A stretch of DNA of 39,546 nt from a virus: positions 1-39,546 of the IMG/VR virus record IMGVR_UViG_3300036841_000390; one strand, given 5' to 3'. Of the stretch, positions 2,965 through 39,546 are shown one piece after another. Within the stretch, counting starts at the first letter, position 1; each line of letters begins with the position of its first letter. The notes beneath the pieces were generated by a model. That model was given only the letters and a program-made list of their open reading frames with translations, did no database searches and was not told where the DNA came from. The position numbers were made by a program, and so were the translations under genes.

Positions 2965-4017
2965 ATGGCATCAATTTCCTCACAACATCACAGTTTTGAC
3001 ATCGCTTTAGCCACAGAATATGGCATTGAGTGCGCAATTCTAATTCACCACTTTCAGCATTGGATTAGAATCAACCGGTTTAAGGAAGACCATATACATC
3101 AAGAACGGTGCTGGATGTATGAAAAGAAAAAAGATATCAAAGCTCACTTTCCTTACTGGAGTTTCGAAGAAGTAAAATATTTGATTGATAAGTTGGTAGC
3201 GTTTGGAGTTTTGATGAAAGGAAACTTCAACAAAAACCGTTTAAATCACACAAATTGGTATGCATTTGTCAATGAAAAAGCCTTTCAAGTGGATCAAGAA
3301 AGCTGTATAAGATTTAAAGAAATGTTTACGAAAAGGGAAAAGTCCCCATTCGATGAGGGAAAAGTCCCCTCTCGAATGGAGAAAAGTCCCCGATCTTATA
3401 TAGGATCATATTCTAAACATACAGATTCTAAACCTACAGATATAAAGGCTAAAGAGAGAGAGAGGGCTTCGCCAAAGTCGGCTCCGCCTCCCGCACCCGC
3501 CCCGGCCAGCCACTACGTTGGTCGCTTTGAAGATAAAATTTTGATTACAACCGAACAGCGCTCGAGGTTGATTGAGAAGTACGGGGGCATGGAATCCCTG
3601 GTGGATCAGTACGCCGAAAGGTTGTACCGTCACTCCCAACAAAACCCGGCAAGCTTCAAAAAATATAAACGCCACGATCTAAAAATCGAAGATTGGATCG
3701 ACCAAGATTTGGCCAAGCCAAAGGAAGAAACTAAACCAAAAACCCAAAAACAACTGCCGTTCACTGAAAATTTAAAACCCAAACAACTTGAAAACTTTAA
3801 GAAAAATCATGCAATCGTGGAACGCTTGGTGACGGAGCATCCAGCGGAATGCTCAGGACTGGAATTTTATTACAAAGCCCACGTGTTACGAGACAAAAAA
3901 AGCCCCAACTTTAGCGTTAGCGGCTTGATTGAACATCGAGATTTTTGCCGAGTTTTAGACAAACATTTAGGCTCAAGCATCGAAGAGGAGGTTTTTGGCA
4001 ATGTCGAATTTATTTAA
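2965..4017 (+). CDS. Replication initiator with winged-helix N-terminus
   Basis: A 350-aa protein; the ATG at 2965 follows AAGGAGAT at 7 bases. Residues 1-105 match the N-terminal winged helix of phage and plasmid replication proteins of the DnaD/replisome-organiser type: ECAILIHHFQHWI, CWMYEKKKDIKAHFPYWSFE, a recognition-helix region (EEVKYLIDKLVAFGVL), then NFNKNRLNHTNWYAFV. A low-complexity linker follows (about 120-180, charged then Pro/Ala-rich), then a C-terminal domain that probably recruits host helicase (family inference). The DNA encoding the linker holds three 22-bp-spaced iterons and an AT-rich stretch, as lambda gene O contains the lambda origin. It heads the second rightward operon. 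Confidence 0.75.
   Translation: MASISSQHHSFDIALATEYGIECAILIHHFQHWIRINRFKEDHIHQERCWMYEKKKDIKAHFPYWSFEEVKYLIDKLVAFGVLMKGNFNKNRLNHTNWYAFVNEKAFQVDQESCIRFKEMFTKREKSPFDEGKVPSRMEKSPRSYIGSYSKHTDSKPTDIKAKERERASPKSAPPPAPAPASHYVGRFEDKILITTEQRSRLIEKYGGMESLVDQYAERLYRHSQQNPASFKKYKRHDLKIEDWIDQDLAKPKEETKPKTQKQLPFTENLKPKQLENFKKNHAIVERLVTEHPAECSGLEFYYKAHVLRDKKSPNFSVSGLIEHRDFCRVLDKHLGSSIEEEVFGNVEFI
3335..3440. other. Probable replication origin: iterons plus AT-rich region
   Basis: GGGAAAAGTCCCC occurs at 3335-3347 and 3357-3369, and GAGAAAAGTCCCC at 3379-3391. The spacing is exactly 22 bp, about two helical turns. Because 22 is not a multiple of three, the copies fall in three different reading frames and encode different residues (EKSP, GKVPS, EKSPR), so the repeat is kept as DNA. 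The unit is nearly palindromic. To its right, 3392-3447 is AT-rich and contains a tandem 15-bp repeat (3410-3424 and 3425-3439, one mismatch). Iterons beside an AT-rich tract inside an initiator gene is the layout of the lambda origin. Confidence 0.7.
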
Positions 4018-5180: not shown

Positions 5181-5473
5181 TGTCGATTTCGATGTTTGAT
5201 TTGGATTTAATGGCATCTTTGGCCAAGGATTCCAGCTCATCGGACGACCTCGAACCGCAACTTGCTAACAACATTAAGAAAATTAGATATTTCATGCTTC
5301 CTCCTGTAGATACATTTGTTACGCACTTTGAATATCAAGAGAAGATTCCGGCACAAATCTGGCAGTTCGAGGATTATTTTTATCTAGAAGTCAATGGACA
5401 TTTATTTATGATTCCGCTTGCGAAGCACTCCATCAATTGCCCATGCTACTTTAAACCGAAAGAAACTCAGTAA
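5180..5473 (+). CDS. Unknown protein at the end of the rightward operon
   Basis: A 97-aa protein. I choose the ATG at 5180 because it overlaps the preceding stop. The same frame is open back to 4994, but that upstream part is antiparallel-style Arg/Ser noise overlapping two other genes. An acidic N-terminus is followed by an alpha/beta segment rich in aromatic residues (QIWQFEDYFYLEVNGHLFMI) and a late CPC. No family recognised. The 3' end overlaps the convergent fibre gene by 23 bp. Confidence 0.6.
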   Translation: MSISMFDLDLMASLAKDSSSSDDLEPQLANNIKKIRYFMLPPVDTFVTHFEYQEKIPAQIWQFEDYFYLEVNGHLFMIPLAKHSINCPCYFKPKETQ

Positions 5474-6779
5474 TTATCACAATTCCTGCAAATCCGTCTC
5501 CTCCTGCAACAGCAGCAGAACTTGCAAAGGTTATGCCTCCGCCGCCTCCGCCTCCATAAGAAGTTCCTGATGTTCCTATGGCAGTTCCTGCTGTACCAGA
5601 TGATGTTCGCCCTCCTCCTCCGAAAAAAGAAGAACCACCAAATCCACCATATCCAACAGACAAAACTCCCAGACCAAAAGAACAAGATCCTGAGTTTCCT
5701 ACGGTATTAAAATCACCTCCAGAACCCGCTCCTGCCAATCCAGCAGATTGAGCCACAACAGCGCTATTTGAAGCGCCCAATCCACCTTGACCCCCTGTGG
5801 CTGAAATTATAGCCCCTACAGAAGTAGTTCCGCCTGCGCCTCCATTCCCTCCAGAGACGGCACCCGCAGCACCCGCAGCACCAATCGTTACAGTTTGACT
5901 TGCACCAATAGTCGCAGCAGATACAGTCTTTCTCGCATAGCCTCCACCACCTCCGCCGGAACCCGCTGAAATCTCTCCAGCACCCGTTGCCGTAGTAGCT
6001 CCACCACCGCCTCCACCTCCAACTACCTCAATGATGCAATATTTCATACCCGTAGTAGGAGTGTATGTGCCGCTAGAAGTGAAAACTTGAGTAGCTATTC
6101 TATCAAAGGCTGATAATGCAATAGAAGCCCAACTTGGCGCCGCGCCCGTAGTTGCCGTTAAAACCTGACCCGTTGTTCCATTTGGTAACAGTGAAGGAAT
6201 TCCAGTTGTCCCAGTTATCAAAACTCCATTATTAACAGTGGATAAGCCAGAAACGACGTTCGTCGCCGAAGAATATAAAATCTGATTAACGGTAGTTGTG
6301 GCCGGATAAGTTGCCGTGGAGAATGCCGGATCCGCGCTGCTTCCGCCTGACTGTAGTACCTGACCCGCTGTCGCCGATGGACCCACTTGCGTGAGCGTGG
6401 TCGTTGCACTCCCAACCTGAACCGCGTGATTCGTGAGCCCAGTCAGTTGGACCGTGAGTGTGCTGGTGCCTGGATTTCCAACCGTGGTTATGCTGCCTGC
6501 TCCAATCACGTTGATGTTGTTTCCAGTCGGAGACACCGCGCCGCCAGAATTTCCCGTCAAAGTCTCCGTGACCACAGTGCTCCCGGCGAAAGATTGCCAA
6601 GCTGCCACGTTCATGGGCTTGCCAAGCAAGATGTACCCTCGCTCCGCGGCCGTGTTGATCCAGATCGTGGGCACGTTAAACTGGAAATTCGACGTAGTGG
6701 GATCCGTCGTCCTGTTGATGAAAGGAACAACGACTTGGCCCTCGTAGCTAAGTACATTGGGAGGAAGTAGACCGCTCAT
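5451..6779 (-). CDS. Tail fibre / receptor-binding protein with glycine-rich tip
   Basis: A 442-aa protein. Residues 1-65 form a distinct N-terminal segment that may attach to the virion. Residues about 73-150 carry the LTGNSGGAVSPTGNNIN module shared with the neighbouring fibre. From about residue 230 a glycine-rich domain begins at FTSSGTYTP and continues to the end with long Gly runs. Such polyglycine-rich C-terminal domains form receptor-binding tips in several tailed phages (family knowledge). It is the last gene of the leftward late block and is coupled by ATGA (6776-6779) to the S74 fibre gene upstream. Confidence 0.75.
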   Translation of the reverse strand: MSGLLPPNVLSYEGQVVVPFINRTTDPTTSNFQFNVPTIWINTAAERGYILLGKPMNVAAWQSFAGSTVVTETLTGNSGGAVSPTGNNINVIGAGSITTVGNPGTSTLTVQLTGLTNHAVQVGSATTTLTQVGPSATAGQVLQSGGSSADPAFSTATYPATTTVNQILYSSATNVVSGLSTVNNGVLITGTTGIPSLLPNGTTGQVLTATTGAAPSWASIALSAFDRIATQVFTSSGTYTPTTGMKYCIIEVVGGGGGGGATTATGAGEISAGSGGGGGGYARKTVSAATIGASQTVTIGAAGAAGAVSGGNGGAGGTTSVGAIISATGGQGGLGASNSAVVAQSAGLAGAGSGGDFNTVGNSGSCSFGLGVLSVGYGGFGGSSFFGGGGRTSSGTAGTAIGTSGTSYGGGGGGGITFASSAAVAGGDGFAGIVIITEFLSV

Positions 6780-8845
6780 GTGATACCTTTCAGTGCGTTG
6801 ATTTCTTTTCTTAACTTTTGAATTTCTGCCAAAAGGAAGATCGGCAATTCATGGTATTTCACGGATTCTGGCAACCCTTCTTTATCATAAACAACAAGGT
6901 TGGGCATAACTTCGTTCACCTCTTCGGCAATCAGTCCGAATTGCGTTTGCATATTTACATCTGACTTATATACATAAGAAACAGGACGCAATTTCATGAT
7001 TTCTTGGCTGTAAGAATCCATGTCTTGAACGTGAGATTTATATCGCAAAGAAGAAACAACCGTTCCTAGCTGACCTGTTGTTGTATCAATCAAAACGGCT
7101 GCCGAATTGGAAACTGTGACTCCGGTAATCCCTGCAATGTAGCAAGTATTTTGTTGCGCTGTCGAAGAACCTTGAGTCCCAATACGAATTACATTATTTT
7201 CAGCCGCCGTTCCACCATTTCCGATTATAATGTTTGAATTTTCAGTCCCCGCATAATTAACTGCGCTTTGATATCCAATAAATATGTTATCGCTTCCTGT
7301 GCAACTAGTCCCAGCATGGCCACCAATTGCAGTGACAAAACTTCCAGGGGTTTGGACTGTGCTGGCTCCAATTAAAACGGAATTATCGGTACCACTGGCA
7401 GAATTATTTGCTACACGCGCTCCTATAAAAACACTGTTAGATATGTTTAATGCACTCGTTGCTGCATTAAAACCTGCAAACACACTTTCAGATACAGTAG
7501 TAGATCCCACTCCACAATTCTGACCCAAATAAGAAGATTGAGCAACCGAAGTAGATCCGCTTCCGCATCCGTTTCCGATCATCACCGCGCCATCACACCC
7601 GGTACAATTGTTTCCAGAAAAACTTCCCAAGTAAGAACAAGCAGCATTACTACTGCAAGTATCACCCGCACTTTCCCCGATAAAATCGCATCGAATATTA
7701 TTAGTGCTTGAACTTCCTGCTGCAACTCCAATTGCTGTACAATCTGTGTTACCAGAAGCGCCACTGCCTGCAAACTTTCCTTCAAATATGTTAGAATCTG
7801 CATCTGTGTTAGAATAAGTCAAGGTCGCGCCGCTTCCAGTAAATAGAACTGTCGATCCCGCCAAAACGCCCGCAACATTCGTTTCAATTGTAACCGTGGC
7901 TCCCGTAGCAGACCCCGTGTCACCATCCAACGTAGTTATACCACTACCTCCTGAAGCAGGCTGCCAGGTAGGAAGCATCGAAGCGCCATTAGATGTCAGT
8001 ACTTCGCCTGATGATCCCAAACCCGATACGTTTTGCAATGCACCTGTAGATGTAGTTCCTCCGCAAATTACACTGTAGGCCGTAAAGCTGGTATCACCTG
8101 TACCCCCTCCAGCCACAACAGCAGTGCCAAATGTAGGATCAGCAGCCGCGCCTTGAGAAATGAGAGGTACTCCAGAAGTTGCCGCCGGAGCCACTTTCGT
8201 GATTGTTGCCGTGCCTGCACCAACCAAAACGTTGTGATTTGTAAGACCAGTCAATTGCACTGTTTCCGTGTTTGCTGAGCCCGCTACTGTAATGCTTCCC
8301 GTTCCTAAAATGTTAAAGTTGCCTGCCGAGGGAGATTCTGCACCGCCGGTGTTGCCTGTTATGGTTGTAATTCCTCCTAAGGTAGCTATCGTTTGGAATG
8401 TGGGATCCGCACCTGTATTGCCTGCTAATACTGTTCCTGTTGCACCTACCCCGGTTGCCACAACGGCCGATGTTCCTTGACCTAATAGGACTCCATGGTT
8501 TGTCAATGTGGTAGCTCCAGTACCTCCACCACTAACTACTGCGGTACCGAAAGTCGGATCTGCTGAGGCACCTTGGCTGATTAAAGGAACACCTGAGGTT
8601 GCGCTAGGAGCAACATTAGTTATAGTTGCAGTTCCAGCGCCAATGAGAACATTGTGATTAGTTAATCCAGTAAGCTGAGTTGTCAAAGTGCTTGTTCCCG
8701 GACTCCCCACAATCGTAATACTACCGGTTCCCAATGTGTTGATATTATTAGCTGTCGGAGAAACTGCTCCACCTGAATTGCCCGTTAAGGTTTGAACATT
8801 ACCCGAACCCCCTCCAGTTGCGTTAAGTGCGCCCGCTTGACTCAT
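6776..8845 (-). CDS. Tail fibre with C-terminal S74 self-cleaving chaperone
   Basis: A 689-aa protein. Residues about 19-108 and 161-250 are two copies of one module (TGNSGGAVSP and TGNTGGAESP starts, GVPLISQGA ends). Residues about 350-560 are short Gly/Ser/Asn-rich beta repeats resembling trimeric adhesin heads (SVFIGARV, NVIRIGTQG). Residues about 596-680 are a Peptidase_S74 intramolecular chaperone: S598 and K603 are spaced as the Ser-Lys dyad, followed by FGLIAEEVNEVMPNLV and a final helix. These chaperones trimerise the fibre and then cut themselves off. Unusually Cys-rich in the head region. Confidence 0.85.
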   Translation of the reverse strand: MSQAGALNATGGGSGNVQTLTGNSGGAVSPTANNINTLGTGSITIVGSPGTSTLTTQLTGLTNHNVLIGAGTATITNVAPSATSGVPLISQGASADPTFGTAVVSGGGTGATTLTNHGVLLGQGTSAVVATGVGATGTVLAGNTGADPTFQTIATLGGITTITGNTGGAESPSAGNFNILGTGSITVAGSANTETVQLTGLTNHNVLVGAGTATITKVAPAATSGVPLISQGAAADPTFGTAVVAGGGTGDTSFTAYSVICGGTTSTGALQNVSGLGSSGEVLTSNGASMLPTWQPASGGSGITTLDGDTGSATGATVTIETNVAGVLAGSTVLFTGSGATLTYSNTDADSNIFEGKFAGSGASGNTDCTAIGVAAGSSSTNNIRCDFIGESAGDTCSSNAACSYLGSFSGNNCTGCDGAVMIGNGCGSGSTSVAQSSYLGQNCGVGSTTVSESVFAGFNAATSALNISNSVFIGARVANNSASGTDNSVLIGASTVQTPGSFVTAIGGHAGTSCTGSDNIFIGYQSAVNYAGTENSNIIIGNGGTAAENNVIRIGTQGSSTAQQNTCYIAGITGVTVSNSAAVLIDTTTGQLGTVVSSLRYKSHVQDMDSYSQEIMKLRPVSYVYKSDVNMQTQFGLIAEEVNEVMPNLVVYDKEGLPESVKYHELPIFLLAEIQKLRKEINALKGIT

Positions 8846-8854
8846 ATTTTTACC

Positions 8855-10156
8855 TTAAACAAAATAGAAACCTTCAAATCTTAAACCTGTATTATTAGCA
8901 AAATTAGCATCTGTCGCAGCCACAGTATTAGCCGCATTAGAAAACTGTAAAAAAGTGAAATTGGTAGAAGCAGCACTGACCCAAGTCAAATTCGTATAAG
9001 TTGCTGAGTATGTAAAATTCTGTGTTTGGGCAATGACAGCACGCTGGTTTGCATTTACTGCTGCTATGGGTAATCCAGTAAAAGTCGCATTTCCCGTTGA
9101 ACTGCCTTTATTTGTTAAAACAATCACAGCTGAAAAAAATACTGTATTTCCAATTCTGGTGTAAGTTCCCGTTTGAGTTCCATATGTTATGCCAGTCGTT
9201 CCACCGCCAAAAGCCACACCCGGAGTGAATGTCCCCTCCACATAATTGCCCAAAGCCGTACCACCCCCTAAGGTGATACTTGTGACAGACGGCGACGCGC
9301 TCCAGGCCGGAAGAGTCGAGGTACCTGCACTCACCAATACTTGTCCAGTGGCAACCGAAGCAATGTTTTGCAAAGCCCCTGTGGTGGTTGTTCCAGATGC
9401 TAAAAGAGCGGAAGTGTTAGCAAAAGAAGTAACTCCAGTTCCTCCGTTTGCAACCACTACACTATTGGTGGAACCAAGCTGACTTGTAGAAGTATTAATT
9501 GTGACGATATTAATATTTGAGACAGAAACACTGGCAATTCCGGAAATAAAACATGTAGTTTGTGTTCCATCTATGCCAATACGAATTACACCACTATCTC
9601 CAACCGTTCCATTATTTCTAAATATAATATTGTTACTTTCTGCACCTGAATAGTTTGCCCCTGCTCCCACGCCAATGGCTATATTGGCTCCTCCTGTTAA
9701 CAAGTTAGCAAGCGCAGAAGTTCCAATTGCTAAATTATAATCTCCAGGATTTAAATTTCTTAATGCATTAACTCCAATACCAACATTTTGCTGTCCAGTT
9801 GTATTGACATTAACTGAAAAAGCCCCCAAAGCAAAATTAAAGTCTCCAGTCGTGTTTCCTGCTCCCGCGGCAGCCCCCATACATACATTGAAAGTTCCTG
9901 AAGTCAATGCAGCAAGCGCACTAAGGCCTATACCAAGATTACTATTGCCAGTATTAGTAAAATTTCCGGCTCCCCCTAGAAAAGCAGTAAGCGTTCCAAA
10001 ATTGGACATGAATGGCGTGGTTCCCAGCTTAATAACTCCGTTTGTCCCTCCAGAATTCGTGTTGGGAAGCGTTAAATTCCCAGCCTGGATGGTAACATCG
10101 CCCCCGGTGACCGTCAAAGTCTCAGTTCTTTTATTAATGGAGTTGTTGGTTACCAT
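8855..10156 (-). CDS. Tail fibre paralogue without S74 domain
   Basis: A 433-aa protein starting MVTNNSIN. Residues about 55-210 have the same adhesin-head-like repeats as the 689-aa fibre (GIGLSALAALTSGT, NVGIGVNALRNLNPG, GVIRIGIDG, then CFISGIASVSVSN). Instead of the S74 chaperone the C-terminus is a different domain beginning near YVEGTFTPGVAF and containing GTYTRIGNTVFFSAVI and FTGLPIA, a pattern found at the ends of many phage tail proteins. This looks like exchange of tip domains on a common shaft. AAGG lies 8 bases before the ATG. Confidence 0.75.
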   Translation of the reverse strand: MVTNNSINKRTETLTVTGGDVTIQAGNLTLPNTNSGGTNGVIKLGTTPFMSNFGTLTAFLGGAGNFTNTGNSNLGIGLSALAALTSGTFNVCMGAAAGAGNTTGDFNFALGAFSVNVNTTGQQNVGIGVNALRNLNPGDYNLAIGTSALANLLTGGANIAIGVGAGANYSGAESNNIIFRNNGTVGDSGVIRIGIDGTQTTCFISGIASVSVSNINIVTINTSTSQLGSTNSVVVANGGTGVTSFANTSALLASGTTTTGALQNIASVATGQVLVSAGTSTLPAWSASPSVTSITLGGGTALGNYVEGTFTPGVAFGGGTTGITYGTQTGTYTRIGNTVFFSAVIVLTNKGSSTGNATFTGLPIAAVNANQRAVIAQTQNFTYSATYTNLTWVSAASTNFTFLQFSNAANTVAATDANFANNTGLRFEGFYFV

Positions 10157-10162
10157 GAAACC

Positions 10163-10765
10163 TTAAACAATTGTTATGTTTCCTATGCTCTGGGTCACAG
10201 TGAACTCCAAATTGGCCACAGTACACAGCAAATAAACCACATCATATTGATTAGTTGAAGCCAAAGAACCACCAGTTCCAGTCGTCGTTGGCGAAGCGGA
10301 ACCAAAGTGAATCAATTGACTGGCATTTTGAGCGATTTTCCATCCTCCCGCGCCCTTTCCCACCACAGCAAGAATAGATCCATAAGCAGCTGTCGTAGGA
10401 AGCGTAAGCGTTACCAATCCCGCATTGTTAGCCGTGTAACCGTTATTCACAGCCATCGCTTGAGAAGTGCCTGTAACATCAGTCCACGTTAAACCGCCTC
10501 CCGTGCCCGCAATTGTGATCGAGCCAGCTGCATTGGTGATGCTGATGCCCGTACCTGCGGTCAATGTAGCCAAAACCGGATCTGCACCCGTGCTGCCGAT
10601 GGGAAGTTGACCATTTGTGGCTACCCCGAGGTTATTGATGGTGTGAGAATTGGCGCCCCCTAGAAGAAGGGAGTGCTGAGTCATAGTGCTAGCATTAAAG
10701 GTCCCGGCCCCATCATAGCCGGCGACCCCAACCGCATTCAGATTAATTGCATTATTTGTAGCCAT
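10163..10765 (-). CDS. Short fibre-like protein
   Basis: A 200-aa protein starting MATNNAIN. Residues 1-90 resemble fibre shaft and linker sequence. Residues about 105-200 form a compact C-terminal domain (LTLPTTAAYGSILAVVGK, GWKIAQNASQLIHFG, ending SIGNITIV). The same domain ends the neighbouring 170-aa protein, so the two are paralogues. Likely a receptor-binding or collar-fibre subunit by context. It lies 4-9 bases from both neighbours in the fibre cluster. Confidence 0.65.
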   Translation of the reverse strand: MATNNAINLNAVGVAGYDGAGTFNASTMTQHSLLLGGANSHTINNLGVATNGQLPIGSTGADPVLATLTAGTGISITNAAGSITIAGTGGGLTWTDVTGTSQAMAVNNGYTANNAGLVTLTLPTTAAYGSILAVVGKGAGGWKIAQNASQLIHFGSASPTTTGTGGSLASTNQYDVVYLLCTVANLEFTVTQSIGNITIV

Positions 10766-10769
10766 ATAC

Positions 10770-11282
10770 TTATACCACTGTTAAATTTGCCATGGAGTCA
10801 ATCACCTTCCAAACCAAGTTCGTCTGCACGCAAACCACCGTCACATGATCCCCGGTTCCCGTTGAGGCTATCGAGCCACCCACACCCGTCATTGTCGTAA
10901 GCATCCCAAAAATGATGCTTTGATTGGCGTTCTGCGTAATCTGGAATAAACTACTCAATCCCGTCACAATGAATGAGTCGCCGACGTTCGCCGTCAGAGG
11001 CAGAAGTAGCACGCATTGAGACACCCCACTCGTGATGTAAGCATTCTCGATTAAAATCTGCTTGACGTTGTCCGCGCTTGTGATCGTATTCCATGTGTAA
11101 CCTGTGCCACTAATCGATATTGTAATAGTGTTTCCAGAGCCCGTAGTGGTAACGGTACCATCGCCGAGAACATTAAGCACATTCAGAGCCGGAACTGCCG
11201 TGCCGCTGTTGGTTACATACTCAGTAGCAATCTCCGGAGGAAGTGGGCTTGATTCTAAATTTAATGCACCCGCCTGGCTCAT
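10770..11282 (-). CDS. Short fibre-like protein, paralogue of 10163-10765
   Basis: A 170-aa protein. Its first seven residues (MSQAGAL) equal those of the 689-aa S74 fibre, suggesting a common attachment peptide. The C-terminal ~95 residues ([31 protein letters not shown], ending SMANLTVV) match the 200-aa neighbour. So the gene combines the start of one fibre with the tip of another. The ribosome site is weak. Confidence 0.65.
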
Positions 11283-11284
11283 AT

Positions 11285-12181
11285 CTATCGATTAAGTTCA
11301 TATTTCTTAATAATCAAATTTAGGTTTTCCAGTTTCTTTTCTAATAATGCCAGTTGGGTTGCACAATTATTCGATTTTAAATATGCATTTTTACCATCGA
11401 GAGCCAAAGCTTGTATTTCGTTAAAAAGCTCGTTTCGCACGCTTTGGGCCGACAACGGGTTCGCATCAAAATCTTTTGCCAAATCGGTTATCTTTTTATC
11501 CACGTAAGCGGTTGCTTGTTTTTCCCTGTAAGCGGCATCTTGTTGCACGCGCCCATACAAGTTGTTTGCCCATTCTTGTAGGCTCGGGAGGGAAGCAATC
11601 GCCTTGGAAAGCTTCGCTTGGTCTTTGGCTGTTTCGGCTTGGGAGACTGCTGTCGCGTCTTTAAATTTGATATGGTCATCTGTCAGTTTTTCTAACGCTT
11701 TAGTAGTTGAAGCCTGCCACGATTTGATTGTTGCCAGAGAATTTTGAAATTCGGCAAAAGAATTTGTGATTTGGTTTTTTTGATCGAATGATACTGCTAA
11801 GCTTTCTTTGATTTTTGCGATGACTTCATTGAAATCTTGATAAATTTTGTTATGAGTCGCAACAAACTTACTAACATAATTCTTGTGTTCATCCAAAGCC
11901 TTTGCATTTGATTCTCCCTTTGAGTGCAAGATTTGAAATTGAGCCCCATAAGTATTGACCTTAAGGCTCAACTCATCAAAAATTGAAGAAGTCGCCGCAA
12001 CGAAAGATTCAATCGTTTTCTTGTTGCCTTTCAACTCAGACTTGAGAGACCGAAATTCATCCAAAACCGCGTCATATGCTTGTATTCTCTGCTGAATAAC
12101 AGAAAACTTTTGTTCCACATCGGCCAGCCTCTCCTCAGCGCTAGCAAGAGATTTGGGACCAAACTTTTTGCCATCGCTCAT
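11285..12181 (-). CDS. Long coiled-coil virion protein
   Basis: A 298-aa protein, almost entirely alpha-helical with heptad patterns from residue ~12 to the end ([19 protein letters not shown], then a long run with few prolines, ending [16 protein letters not shown]). It lies inside the fibre cluster, 4 bp from each neighbour. It could be a coiled-coil fibre shaft, a fibre-tail connector or an assembly chaperone. Nothing decides between these. Confidence 0.65.
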
Positions 12182-12184
12182 GGA

Positions 12185-12511
12185 TTACCCCAGACATTCG
12201 ATGTAAACCGCACCCGACGTTGGAGCCGTGCTTTGCTTTACATAATACTGCGTCCCTTTTGGAATGGCCCAGACAGGTTGTAAAGCATTGCGATTCGAAG
12301 TGAAATCGAACAGCTTGAAAGATCCCGCAGCCACAAACAGTTTGTTGTTTGTCCCATCATCGCTGAAAAAAACATCTCCGTTCGTGTTGTTGGTGAAGCA
12401 AATCAATTTGACGGGAAAACTGAAAACGGTTCCCACAGTTGCGTAGGTTCCAGAAATCCCTCCGAACGCAAGCGTTCTAATTGTATCGATTGTGACGACA
12501 AGTGGGCTCAT
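12185..12511 (-). CDS. Conserved small podovirus virion protein
   Basis: A 108-aa protein; AGGAG precedes the ATG. Predominantly beta: TLAFGGISGTYATVGTVFSFP, then FTNNTNGDVFFSDDGTNNKLFVAAGSFKLFDF and GTQYYVKQ. I associate this strand pattern (ISGTYATVGT, DGTNNKLFVAAGS, YVKQ) with small structural proteins of environmental podoviruses; their role is not defined. It sits between a fibre gene and the coiled-coil gene. Confidence 0.65.
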   Translation of the reverse strand: MSPLVVTIDTIRTLAFGGISGTYATVGTVFSFPVKLICFTNNTNGDVFFSDDGTNNKLFVAAGSFKLFDFTSNRNALQPVWAIPKGTQYYVKQSTAPTSGAVYIECLG

Positions 12512-12520
12512 GAATTACTC

Positions 12521-13711
12521 CTAGGCGTTTATAATCCACCAGTTGAATGTACTGGTTTCATTTGCTGTGCTCGTGAGGGTGAATCCCGTTCCGTCTTGCG
12601 CAGTAATGGAAACTTCACCTGGAGTGCCCCCAGTTACATTTCGGCTGAAGAATATTAACGCTGTGCCGCTCGAAGCTGTTGTTGCCACAGTTACGGCCCC
12701 TGGAGTTCCTGACATAGCAGAAGAAGTTCCCACCGATGCATTGGCTCCCGTAGCAATCACCAGTTTGTTCCCTGCTGTGCCCAGTGCAACGTTTCCGTTA
12801 GTAGCGGTGATGTTTCCTAAAGTTGCTGTTATGGAAGTGCTCGCCGTTAAAGCGCCCGCTTGGGAAAGAGTTAGCGCATTGCTCGTGCCAACTGCCGTGC
12901 TATTTGATATTACGAAGAGGTCTGAGGCAGAGTTGTCAAGCCCCATAGTCATAGTAGAGGGTGCCACACCGCTGATTTGAAAACTCAAGTAGGGATCGCC
13001 CCCAGATGCGCCGCCCGTTGCAATCTCAACACCCGCTCTAGAAGCACCGTTAGTATTGTCCGAATTGGTGACCTCGATCGTAACGTCGGTTCCCGCATTA
13101 CTGTGAGAATTGATAATGTCTCCGCCAGAAACTAGAATTCCACCTGTAGTCACCGTCAGTCCTGTGCCCGCAGTCATGCTAGTTCCAGCGTTGACCTGTC
13201 CGGCTGTAGCAACAATGTTACCTGTAGTGGCCGTGATGCCCGTTCCAGCCGTTACTGTAGTGGCTGCCGACATGGAACCAAGAGTCGACGTGATGTTTCC
13301 AGTAGATGCCACAATATTTCCGGTTGTAGCTGTGATTCCGGTGCCTGCTGTGACTGTAGTGCCGCCCGCCAAAGACGTAGTCGTGGTTAACGAGCCAGGA
13401 GCCGTGATCGCCGAAGGAAGACTTACAGTTGCAGTGTTTCCGACCGTGTTAACCGTGATTTGGTTAGCTGTGCCCAATACCGATGCAATAGCTCCCGAAG
13501 AACCACCCAGAAGCACCCATGTGTCCACGCCGCCCGACTTTTTGGCCAACCCATAAATGTTCCCTGCCACGTAGTCAACTGTGATCGTTCCGAGTGCATC
13601 TTCTGTTAACTTAGTACCAGGAGCAGTAGTTGCTTGTTTTACATTAGCGGGATTGAGAACTTGACCGCCTCCATAGAAAGGGGTCGTTTGGGGGGAAAGT
13701 GTTGGTGGCAT
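12521..13711 (-). CDS. Fibre-like protein with TTVTAGTGITATTGN repeats
   Basis: A 396-aa protein; AAGGAG precedes the ATG. Residues about 1-75 contain a YGGGQVLN stretch and a W-V-LLGG strand. Residues 100-185 are short beta repeats built on TAGTGITATTGNIVA, two near-perfect copies plus variants. Thr, Ser, Gly and Ala dominate, as in triple-beta-helix shafts. The end is STFNWWIINA. It is the first fibre-like gene of the leftward cluster, next to a divergent control region. Confidence 0.7.
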   Translation of the reverse strand: MPPTLSPQTTPFYGGGQVLNPANVKQATTAPGTKLTEDALGTITVDYVAGNIYGLAKKSGGVDTWVLLGGSSGAIASVLGTANQITVNTVGNTATVSLPSAITAPGSLTTTTSLAGGTTVTAGTGITATTGNIVASTGNITSTLGSMSAATTVTAGTGITATTGNIVATAGQVNAGTSMTAGTGLTVTTGGILVSGGDIINSHSNAGTDVTIEVTNSDNTNGASRAGVEIATGGASGGDPYLSFQISGVAPSTMTMGLDNSASDLFVISNSTAVGTSNALTLSQAGALTASTSITATLGNITATNGNVALGTAGNKLVIATGANASVGTSSAMSGTPGAVTVATTASSGTALIFFSRNVTGGTPGEVSITAQDGTGFTLTSTANETSTFNWWIINA

Positions 13712-29772: not shown

Positions 29773-30504
29773 ATGTCAGAAATACTACGTACAAGAGATT
29801 ATTCAATTTTCAAAAAACACCCACAAAACAGAGAATTAAAGCCACTTAATTTAAAAAAATTAGAAGAATCATTAGGAGAAAAAAGCTTACTTGAATTTCG
29901 TCCAATATTAGTAGACAAAGACATGAGAGTGTTAGATGGACAACACTGCGTGAGAGTGGCTGAAAAGCTTGGAATCGAAGTATTTTACATGATAGTTCCT
30001 GATGCGCAAGTAGAAGATATAATCAGACTAAATGCCTACAAACAAAATTGGGCAACCGATGATTACATGAACGCTCACAGTTCTTTAGGTAAAGCAGAAT
30101 ACATAAAATTGAATGAATTTTGTAATAGAAACCAAATATCAATAGCTGAATTTTTACATATGATGAATATACGACATGGTTCCCAAATTAAAAAGTTGAA
30201 AAAGGGAGAAGTGATATTACCACCACAACAAACACTCGATGAGTTTGAAAAAAAATTGATAAAATTAAATGATTTATGCAGTCTAATTGATTCTTATTCA
30301 ATTAAATATAATTATATTACAAAAACTCAAAGATTTAGAAGAGCTGCGTATATTCTTTTATCAAATAAAAATACAGATTATAAAACCTTACTGAAAAAGA
30401 TAAAATTTAACTTTGATAAAATCAGACCATCTACGACATCAAAGACTTATTACTCAATGCTTAGAGACATATATAATTATAAAAATCAAAATCCCATCGA
30501 TTAA
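29773..30504 (+). CDS. ParB/sulfiredoxin-fold protein, AT-rich
   Basis: A 243-aa protein; GAGGT precedes the ATG. Residues about 10-80 match the ParB-like nuclease/CTPase N-terminal fold: NRELKPLNLKKLEESL, then FRPILVDKDMRVLDGQHCVRVAEKLGIEVFYMIV, with D55-G-Q-H58 in place of the usual DGHHR/DGQHR. The middle is helical with no clear HTH. The C-terminal half is Lys/Asn/Tyr-rich. The gene is far more AT-rich than its surroundings, as recent transfer would give. In phages such proteins act in partition, DNA modification or transcription control; here unknown. Confidence 0.7.
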   Translation: MSEILRTRDYSIFKKHPQNRELKPLNLKKLEESLGEKSLLEFRPILVDKDMRVLDGQHCVRVAEKLGIEVFYMIVPDAQVEDIIRLNAYKQNWATDDYMNAHSSLGKAEYIKLNEFCNRNQISIAEFLHMMNIRHGSQIKKLKKGEVILPPQQTLDEFEKKLIKLNDLCSLIDSYSIKYNYITKTQRFRRAAYILLSNKNTDYKTLLKKIKFNFDKIRPSTTSKTYYSMLRDIYNYKNQNPID

Positions 30505-39031: not shown

Positions 39032-39546
39032 ATGATTATAAAAGATGGACGCGAGTACGCCCGAGTATCTGAGATTTTGGCTCCTTTAAATGACTTTTCA
39101 CATATAGATCCCGAAGTGCTGGCCAATAAATGCCGCATCGGGACGCGTGTGCATGAAGCGATTGCCGCTGAAATTGCCGGAGAATTCCCCATTTTGGACG
39201 AAGCGAGTTACGGATATTTTAAGAGTTTTTTGGCCTGGAACCAGGAGCTGAAGCCACATTTCCGAAACTCGGAACAACGTTATTACAGCGATGAGCACAT
39301 GATTACTGGACAGATCGATTCTTTGATTCATTTTGACGGAAAAGGTCCCTATTTAGTCGATTTTAAGACTTCGGCAAGCGAGGGGGATACTTGGATATAT
39401 CAAGGACATTTGTACCACATGCTTTTGGCCGAAAATAAAATATCATTATACCCGAGATACCTTTTCATTAAGCTGGACAAGAACGGAATGCTGCCGCGCA
39501 TTTTTGAATATAGACTTGATCTTAACATAAGAGCGCAGTGCGTGAA
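39032..39546 (+). CDS. PD-(D/E)XK exonuclease, N-terminal part (gene crosses the ends)
   Basis: Start ATG 39032 with AGGAG 9 bases upstream; 171 codons are present here and the gene continues at base 1, giving 186 aa in all. The motifs are those of RecB/Cas4-type PD-(D/E)XK nucleases: GTRVHEA with H41 and E42, GQIDSL with D96, VDFKTS with D110 and K112, and IYQGHLYHM with Q124 as the family's Q-Y motif. These coordinate metal for DNA cleavage. It heads the operon containing recT, so it probably makes the single strands RecT anneals. Control is likely through the promoter pair at 38977-39008. Confidence 0.85.
   Translation, partial: MIIKDGREYARVSEILAPLNDFSHIDPEVLANKCRIGTRVHEAIAAEIAGEFPILDEASYGYFKSFLAWNQELKPHFRNSEQRYYSDEHMITGQIDSLIHFDGKGPYLVDFKTSASEGDTWIYQGHLYHMLLAENKISLYPRYLFIKLDKNGMLPRIFEYRLDLNIRAQCV
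39420..39546. repeat. Terminal direct repeat (copy of 1-127)
   Basis: Identical to bases 1-127. Counting it once gives a 39,419-bp circle. Confidence 0.95.

Follow-up and report, generated by a model that had tools for sequence, protein, structure and literature searches.

Replication origins that lie within the gene of their own initiator are already known from phage lambda (gene O), from phi80 and from the RepA_N plasmids; SPP1 (G38P) and phage 80alpha (ORF20) are further cases, reported or inferred. The lambda origin was reportedly described in 1977, and the general idea of an in-gene origin is said to date from then. In lambda, dimers of O bind inverted-repeat iterons and an AT-rich tract of 40 bp beside them opens (PMC5043065, PMC7466680). 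The origin of plasmid pSK41 consists of Rep boxes in the linker DNA between the N-terminal winged-helix domain and the C-terminal domain; the RepA_N N-domain binds these boxes, which are central in its own gene, and its C-domain makes contact with primase (PMC5703833). Most iterons of RepA_N plasmids have a semi-palindromic sequence with a poly-A tract at its centre (PMC7145576). In pPR9, a pSK41-type plasmid, the N-domain and origin have been naturally exchanged for phage-like counterparts (PMC5703833). The initiator gene 38 of SPP1 (G38P) was shown to contain oriL (PMC5499656, PMC6316719). The 80alpha origin was inferred to lie within ORF20, since complementation in trans failed to rescue a deletion (PMC5499656), and a putative origin is marked in gp20 in the 80alpha database record.

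The locus compared here with these systems belongs to an uncultivated virus, of which the whole record of 39,546 nt (the window) was analyzed. A direct terminal repeat of 127 bp (1-127) is identical to 39420-39546, so the record is probably complete, and it is circular or terminally redundant with a length of about 39.4 kb. An exonuclease-like gene starting at 39032 crosses the terminal-repeat junction, and several adjacent minus-strand genes at 5451-13711, which contain recurring modules of the GNSGGAVSPTANNINxLG and NHxVLIGAGTATIT types, are probably tail-fibre paralogues. The replication initiator gene (2965-4017, plus strand) encodes 350 amino acids and is immediately preceded by the ribosome-binding-like sequence AAGGAG. 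A profile search matched residues 7-112 to PHROG 11233, annotated 'replication initiation protein' (E 6.3e-23), and the N-terminal 112 residues also matched PHROG 6493, 'DnaD-like helicase loader'. A Pfam search with the 350-residue protein gave no match. The N-terminal profile of PHROG 11233 was matched by all 36 of the 36 aligned family members.

Within the initiator gene the motif GRGAAAAGTCCCC occurs three times, at 3335, 3357 and 3379, in steps of 22 and 22 bp. Iterons 1 (3335-3347) and 2 (3357-3369) both read GGGAAAAGTCCCC, with the dyad GGGA-AAAG-TCCC, and iteron 3 (3379-3391) reads GAGAAAAGTCCCC, with one arm base changed; all three are given on the plus strand, and 12 of the 13 columns are identical across them. 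Their offsets from the start codon (370, 392 and 414) place them in frames 1, 2 and 0, and copies 1 and 3 encode the same peptide, EKSP, with differing codons. Synonymous codon shuffles within the gene gave a maximum of 8/13 identical columns, and 12 was reached in 0/100. These data agree with the first-pass annotation, which had described three 13-mers spaced by 22 bp in three reading frames and had proposed that they are conserved as DNA and not as protein; their dyad symmetry is an addition to that description. A search of the 39.5-kb window for further three-copy arrays, allowing spacings from 10 to 60 bp and requiring 11/13 identity or better, found none. The iteron motif alone, with up to 2 mismatches allowed, gave 4 matches against 2.1 expected and was not rarer than chance; the significance of the array lies in its spacing and clustering, not in the motif sequence alone. 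A GC-skew plot, which the same annotation had suggested as an origin check, was not diagnostic, as the skew of the window tracks gene strand and marks no clear origin.

The AT-rich tract that follows (3400-3450, plus strand) is a putative DNA unwinding element. It contains the tandem 15-bp repeat noticed earlier on the 3' side of the iterons, with CATATTCTAAA at 3407 (3407-3421) and CAGATTCTAAA at 3422 (3422-3436), which are 87% alike, and a third, partial unit, CAGATATAAA, from 3437. The three units are a divergent version of the family motif CAGATAnTAAA.

We analyzed the initiator protein with an AlphaFold model built from the window and its viral relatives. The predicted winged-helix DNA-binding domain (residues 7-112, encoded by 2983-3300 on the plus strand) was assigned from the PHROG 11233 match and from the pLDDT, which was 93-97 across residues 11-120, so that this domain is confident to about residue 120. 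A low-confidence stretch from about 130 to 190, which is predicted to be a disordered linker, separates it from further helices starting at residue 196. The C-terminal part (residues 196-342, encoded by 3550-3990 on the plus strand) may recruit replication proteins; it gave a weak match, to relative L040 only. The iterons correspond to codons 124-143 and the AT-rich units to residues 148-161, which places both mostly in the DNA of the predicted flexible linker, with the array at its start. The expected position between the winged-helix and C-terminal domains was thus confirmed on the model. Sequence-based searches for solved structures of the initiator gave no useful match. With the N-domain of the model, the top chains in VIA-align were 4pql_A, 4pt7_B and 5kbj_G (Z 9.7-10.1, rmsd 5.2-7.5); over 4pql, 4pt7, 5kbj and 4pta, Z was 8.8-10.1 and rmsd 5-8, and generic winged helices scored Z 8.8 or less. 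The Foldseek E value for RepA_N-type chains was marginal (about 0.03). Among solved structures, the chains that scored nearest to the predicted fold of the N-domain were those of RepA_N plasmid initiators.

The linker DNA of related initiators was compared in 80 viral and 15 phage-database relatives, which left 76 sequences after N-domains more than 80% identical were dropped. The viral relatives were gathered with a 5-member alignment; an alignment of 14 members had proved too divergent for searching, and a viral scan with the single initiator protein found no locus. Of the 76 non-redundant sequences, 50 had their best three-copy linker period at exactly 22 bp and 65 had it within 21-23 bp; the sequences are phylogenetically linked, so that these counts are not independent events. 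In 75 relatives, with the window excluded, the mean DNA self-similarity of the linkers at lag 22 was 0.377, compared with 0.337 for synonymous shuffles (z 16.5), and a harmonic appeared at lag 44 (z 6.9). No lag-22 signal was present in the winged-helix region before the linker or in the C-terminal region after it. The shuffled value at lag 22 itself exceeds that at neighbouring lags, so the repeat has left its mark on the protein sequence as well. Taken individually, just 23 of the 76 sequences reached p <=0.02 in the linker test. The 22-bp iterons that had been expected in the linker DNA of related genes are thus present, and array periodicity was found in most homologues, but in a minority (e.g. 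L006 and L076) the array is not clear.

The sequence of the repeat varies by relative, for example ACAATCCATTGTT (L067), TGGCGAAATCGCCA (L089), GGGCAAAAGTGCCC (L041) and TGCCCAAATGGGCA (L056), and its make is usually that of a palindrome around an A-tract. In 42 arrays, 3.40 of 6 pairs were complementary, compared with 2.76 in column shuffles (Wilcoxon p 1.6e-6). Most of the closest relatives have palindromic 12-mers with an A/T-rich centre in 2 or 3 copies, 20-23 bp apart, including perfect palindromes such as GGCAAAATTGCC, GGGAAAATTCCC and GGCGAAATCGCC; in L040, which also belongs to this closest set, one copy is a clean palindrome and the other two are poor. The GGGA-AAAG-TCCC dyads of the window are imperfect (p 0.09 alone) and have the same make as the iterons of these relatives. 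A specificity code linking the recognition helix to the iteron was rejected, as recognition-helix residues correlated with iteron sequence no better than chance (best partial r 0.11; permutation maxima averaging 0.11), in a test weakened by ambiguous dyad centres. In another, barely related group of winged-helix initiators (L019, L021, L023, L027, L028, L030, L032, L034 and L035), the iteron core GGAAAAGTCC recurs every 23 bp at the equivalent place in the linker, and the presence of this core in both groups reflects either shared specificity or coincidence. Arrays of GAAAAGTCCCC with 21-22-bp spacing were also observed in the viral contigs L022 (3057-3110), L026 (3975-4005, minus strand) and L031 (7382-7412, minus strand) with no confident initiator ORF over them, and for L031 no ORF over the array was found; these may be origins that stand alone and use the same iteron core as the window.

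Many relatives have CCTATACCAGATAnTAAA..CAGATA on the 3' side of the iterons, and codon choice in this element was compared with that elsewhere in the same genes. Isoleucine was encoded by ATA in 33/36 cases (35% elsewhere), proline by CCA in 42/45 (32% elsewhere) and aspartate by GAT in 27/27 (62% elsewhere), and threonine was ACT in 13/13 cases at one position and ACA in 14/14 two codons later (Fisher p 5e-8). The density of CAGATA was 6.4 per kb in linkers and 0.3 elsewhere, and the AT content of the linkers was 0.632 against a synonymous expectation of 0.593 (p 1.5e-9). The AT-rich element of the family is conserved as DNA, with position-specific codon choice. We also scanned viral contigs with the DNA motif alone, which matched at least 120 stretches. 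Among the matches listed, family initiator genes were present at 45 of 80 loci, and the commonest upstream repeat spacing was 22 bp. Many of the other loci (L142, L147, L149, L168, L172 and similar) hold one recurrent unrelated sequence, CCATAATTTAATGCTCTC...CTTGTTGTTG, which also contains CCWATACCAGATANTAAA.

The data suggest that 3335-3450 is very probably an in-gene theta origin, at which the N-domain would bind the iterons, the AT-rich element would melt and the C-domain would recruit, three activities assigned by analogy with lambda and RepA_N. The interpretation of the first-pass annotation, an origin inside the initiator gene, gains support from the 22-bp periodicity of the family in linker DNA. 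The winged-helix domain would bind each of the 22-bp-spaced palindromic iterons, probably as a dimer, and three iterons about two helical turns apart would stack on one face of the DNA to form a nucleoprotein complex. Strain from this complex would open the CAGATA-type repeats of the AT-rich tract beside it, and at the resulting bubble the C-terminal domain would recruit the helicase or primase machinery of the host. Such an origin could sit in the linker because a disordered peptide would tolerate whatever the DNA signal encodes.

Initiators often autoregulate, and the repeats lie inside a transcribed gene, so they might be initiator sites for autoregulation or incompatibility (as an operator or by handcuffing), with replication starting elsewhere. 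An exact 12-bp inverted pair, GATCCTGAAGCC (2806-2817) and GGCTTCAGGATC (2930-2941), flanks the intergenic stretch that precedes the initiator gene and hints at other regulatory sites; its two halves are possible operators, and no further exact copies were present in the window. However, no iteron-like copy above chance was found near the promoter region or elsewhere in the window, and most relatives have the conserved AT-rich DNA element 3' of the array, which an operator would not need. We consider this explanation unlikely. The palindromic make of the repeats is also that of parS partition sites, and the phage encodes a ParB-like protein (29773-30504; PHROG 12305, E 4e-26), whose plus-strand gene is surrounded mainly by genes on the minus strand and lies where the GC content of the genome is lowest (0.31). 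A partition role would leave the location within an initiator gene unexplained, and in the diverse phages of the family the arrays keep one position within the initiator linker, with a sequence that varies by member; this makes it very improbable that the repeats are parS-like sites for that protein.

It might also be argued that the repeats have no DNA role and have arisen by chance or as a low-complexity EKSP/GKVP linker repeat at the protein level, because the linker is predicted to be disordered and is locally repetitive. This is contradicted by the three reading frames, by the differing codons for one peptide, by the 0/100 synonymous shuffles and by a family-wide period of 22, which is not a multiple of 3, and we regard it as scarcely credible. 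Under the in-gene origin reading, a further proposal is tentative and to us somewhat doubtful, namely that the family forms an undescribed, large class of phage origins, of which the common unwinding element, CCTATACCAGATAnTAAA plus CAGATA, is a sequence-specific docking site on single-stranded DNA. In that case the element would be kept as DNA in coding sequence while the adjacent iterons turn over completely, its role would be comparable to that of the DnaA-trio of bacterial origins, and its reader would be the initiator or a common host factor.

The arrangement can be followed through dozens of uncultivated viruses, and it would allow candidate origins to be read from the sequence of uncultivated phages as a winged-helix initiator followed by 22-bp-spaced palindromes in the linker and then CAGATA. 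DNA signals appear to overwrite the protein sequence here, with iterons that change by phage at a fixed spacing and place, and C-terminal domains appear to be swapped behind a similar cassette of N-domain plus origin. With these changing iterons and swapped domains, natural variants could be used to test origin specificity and domain exchange.

The layout of the window resembles that of lambda O, phi80 gp15 and Gifsy-2 O, in which inverted-repeat iterons likewise recur within the gene at intervals of about 20-24 bp and precede an AT-rich tract. Among known O genes, our array scorer found arrays in phi80 and Gifsy-2 and a weaker one in lambda; none was found in P22 gene 18 or in Pseudomonas O genes. 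PF04492 (Phage_rep_O) matched neither the window protein nor any scanned relative, although the lambda O control was matched at 5.7e-36, and hhalign of the family N-domain against lambda-O N-domains gave a probability of 2.5%. Homology of the N-domain to lambda O was therefore not found directly, and this supports the earlier statement that the iteron and the initiator family differ from those of lambda. PHROG 678 and 277 were matched by some relatives and by lambda O, not by the window, and a link through PHROG 678 was set aside because it may reflect a mixed cluster. The C-terminal part of the window protein is not lambda-O-like, and no lambda-P-like loader was identified beside the gene. 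A C-terminal domain of the lambda-O type was found behind a window-type N-domain in L039, L004, L114 and L090.

The 80alpha N-domain is of another type, with a weak HTH_36 match and no match to the family profile, and its gp20 matches Phg_2220_C at 1.1e-31, a C-terminal domain that the window lacks. Domains of this 80alpha type stand behind a window-type N-domain in L013, L014, L082 and L015. The gene in L013 (2938-3813), from Staphylococcus phage vB_G30_01, combines a window-type N-domain, 23-bp iterons and an 80alpha-type C-domain, and would thus represent a natural swap at the origin. The initiators of PHROG 11233 and 6493 from Flavobacterium elemo phage, Bacteroides B124-14, BcepMigl and Vibrio phages have the same N-domain as the window, and several of them have 22-bp-spaced linker repeats, whereas they differ from the window in iteron sequence and C-terminal domain. 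The literature searched contained no published origin for these initiators.

With regard to RepA_N, PF06970 was matched at E <=1 in 0 of 10 records (the window record and nine others, relatives and controls) and in none of the scanned relatives. The positive control, RepA of pMP118, was matched at 2.4e-10, and pWCFS103, an intended RepA_N control, had no PF06970 match. The pMP118 RepA gene gave no three-copy array, which indicates that the scorer misses some RepA_N origins. A CAGATA element was not found described for RepA_N in the literature searched. The window is from a phage, not a plasmid, and the sequences and spacing of its iterons are particular to its family, but it shares with RepA_N the repeats in linker-coding DNA and semi-palindromic iterons around an A-tract, as judged from sequence layout. 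The likeness to the lambda origin that had been proposed therefore holds for the layout, but lambda is not the closest analogue; RepA_N (pSK41) is closer, because it combines the same layout with semi-palindromic A-tract iterons and the nearest-scoring solved fold. On this comparison the candidate origin of the window would be a further lineage of an established in-gene layout, in which the fresh features are the family-wide 22-bp palindromic design, with a sequence that changes between phages, and a putative unwinding element embedded in coding sequence and conserved as DNA.
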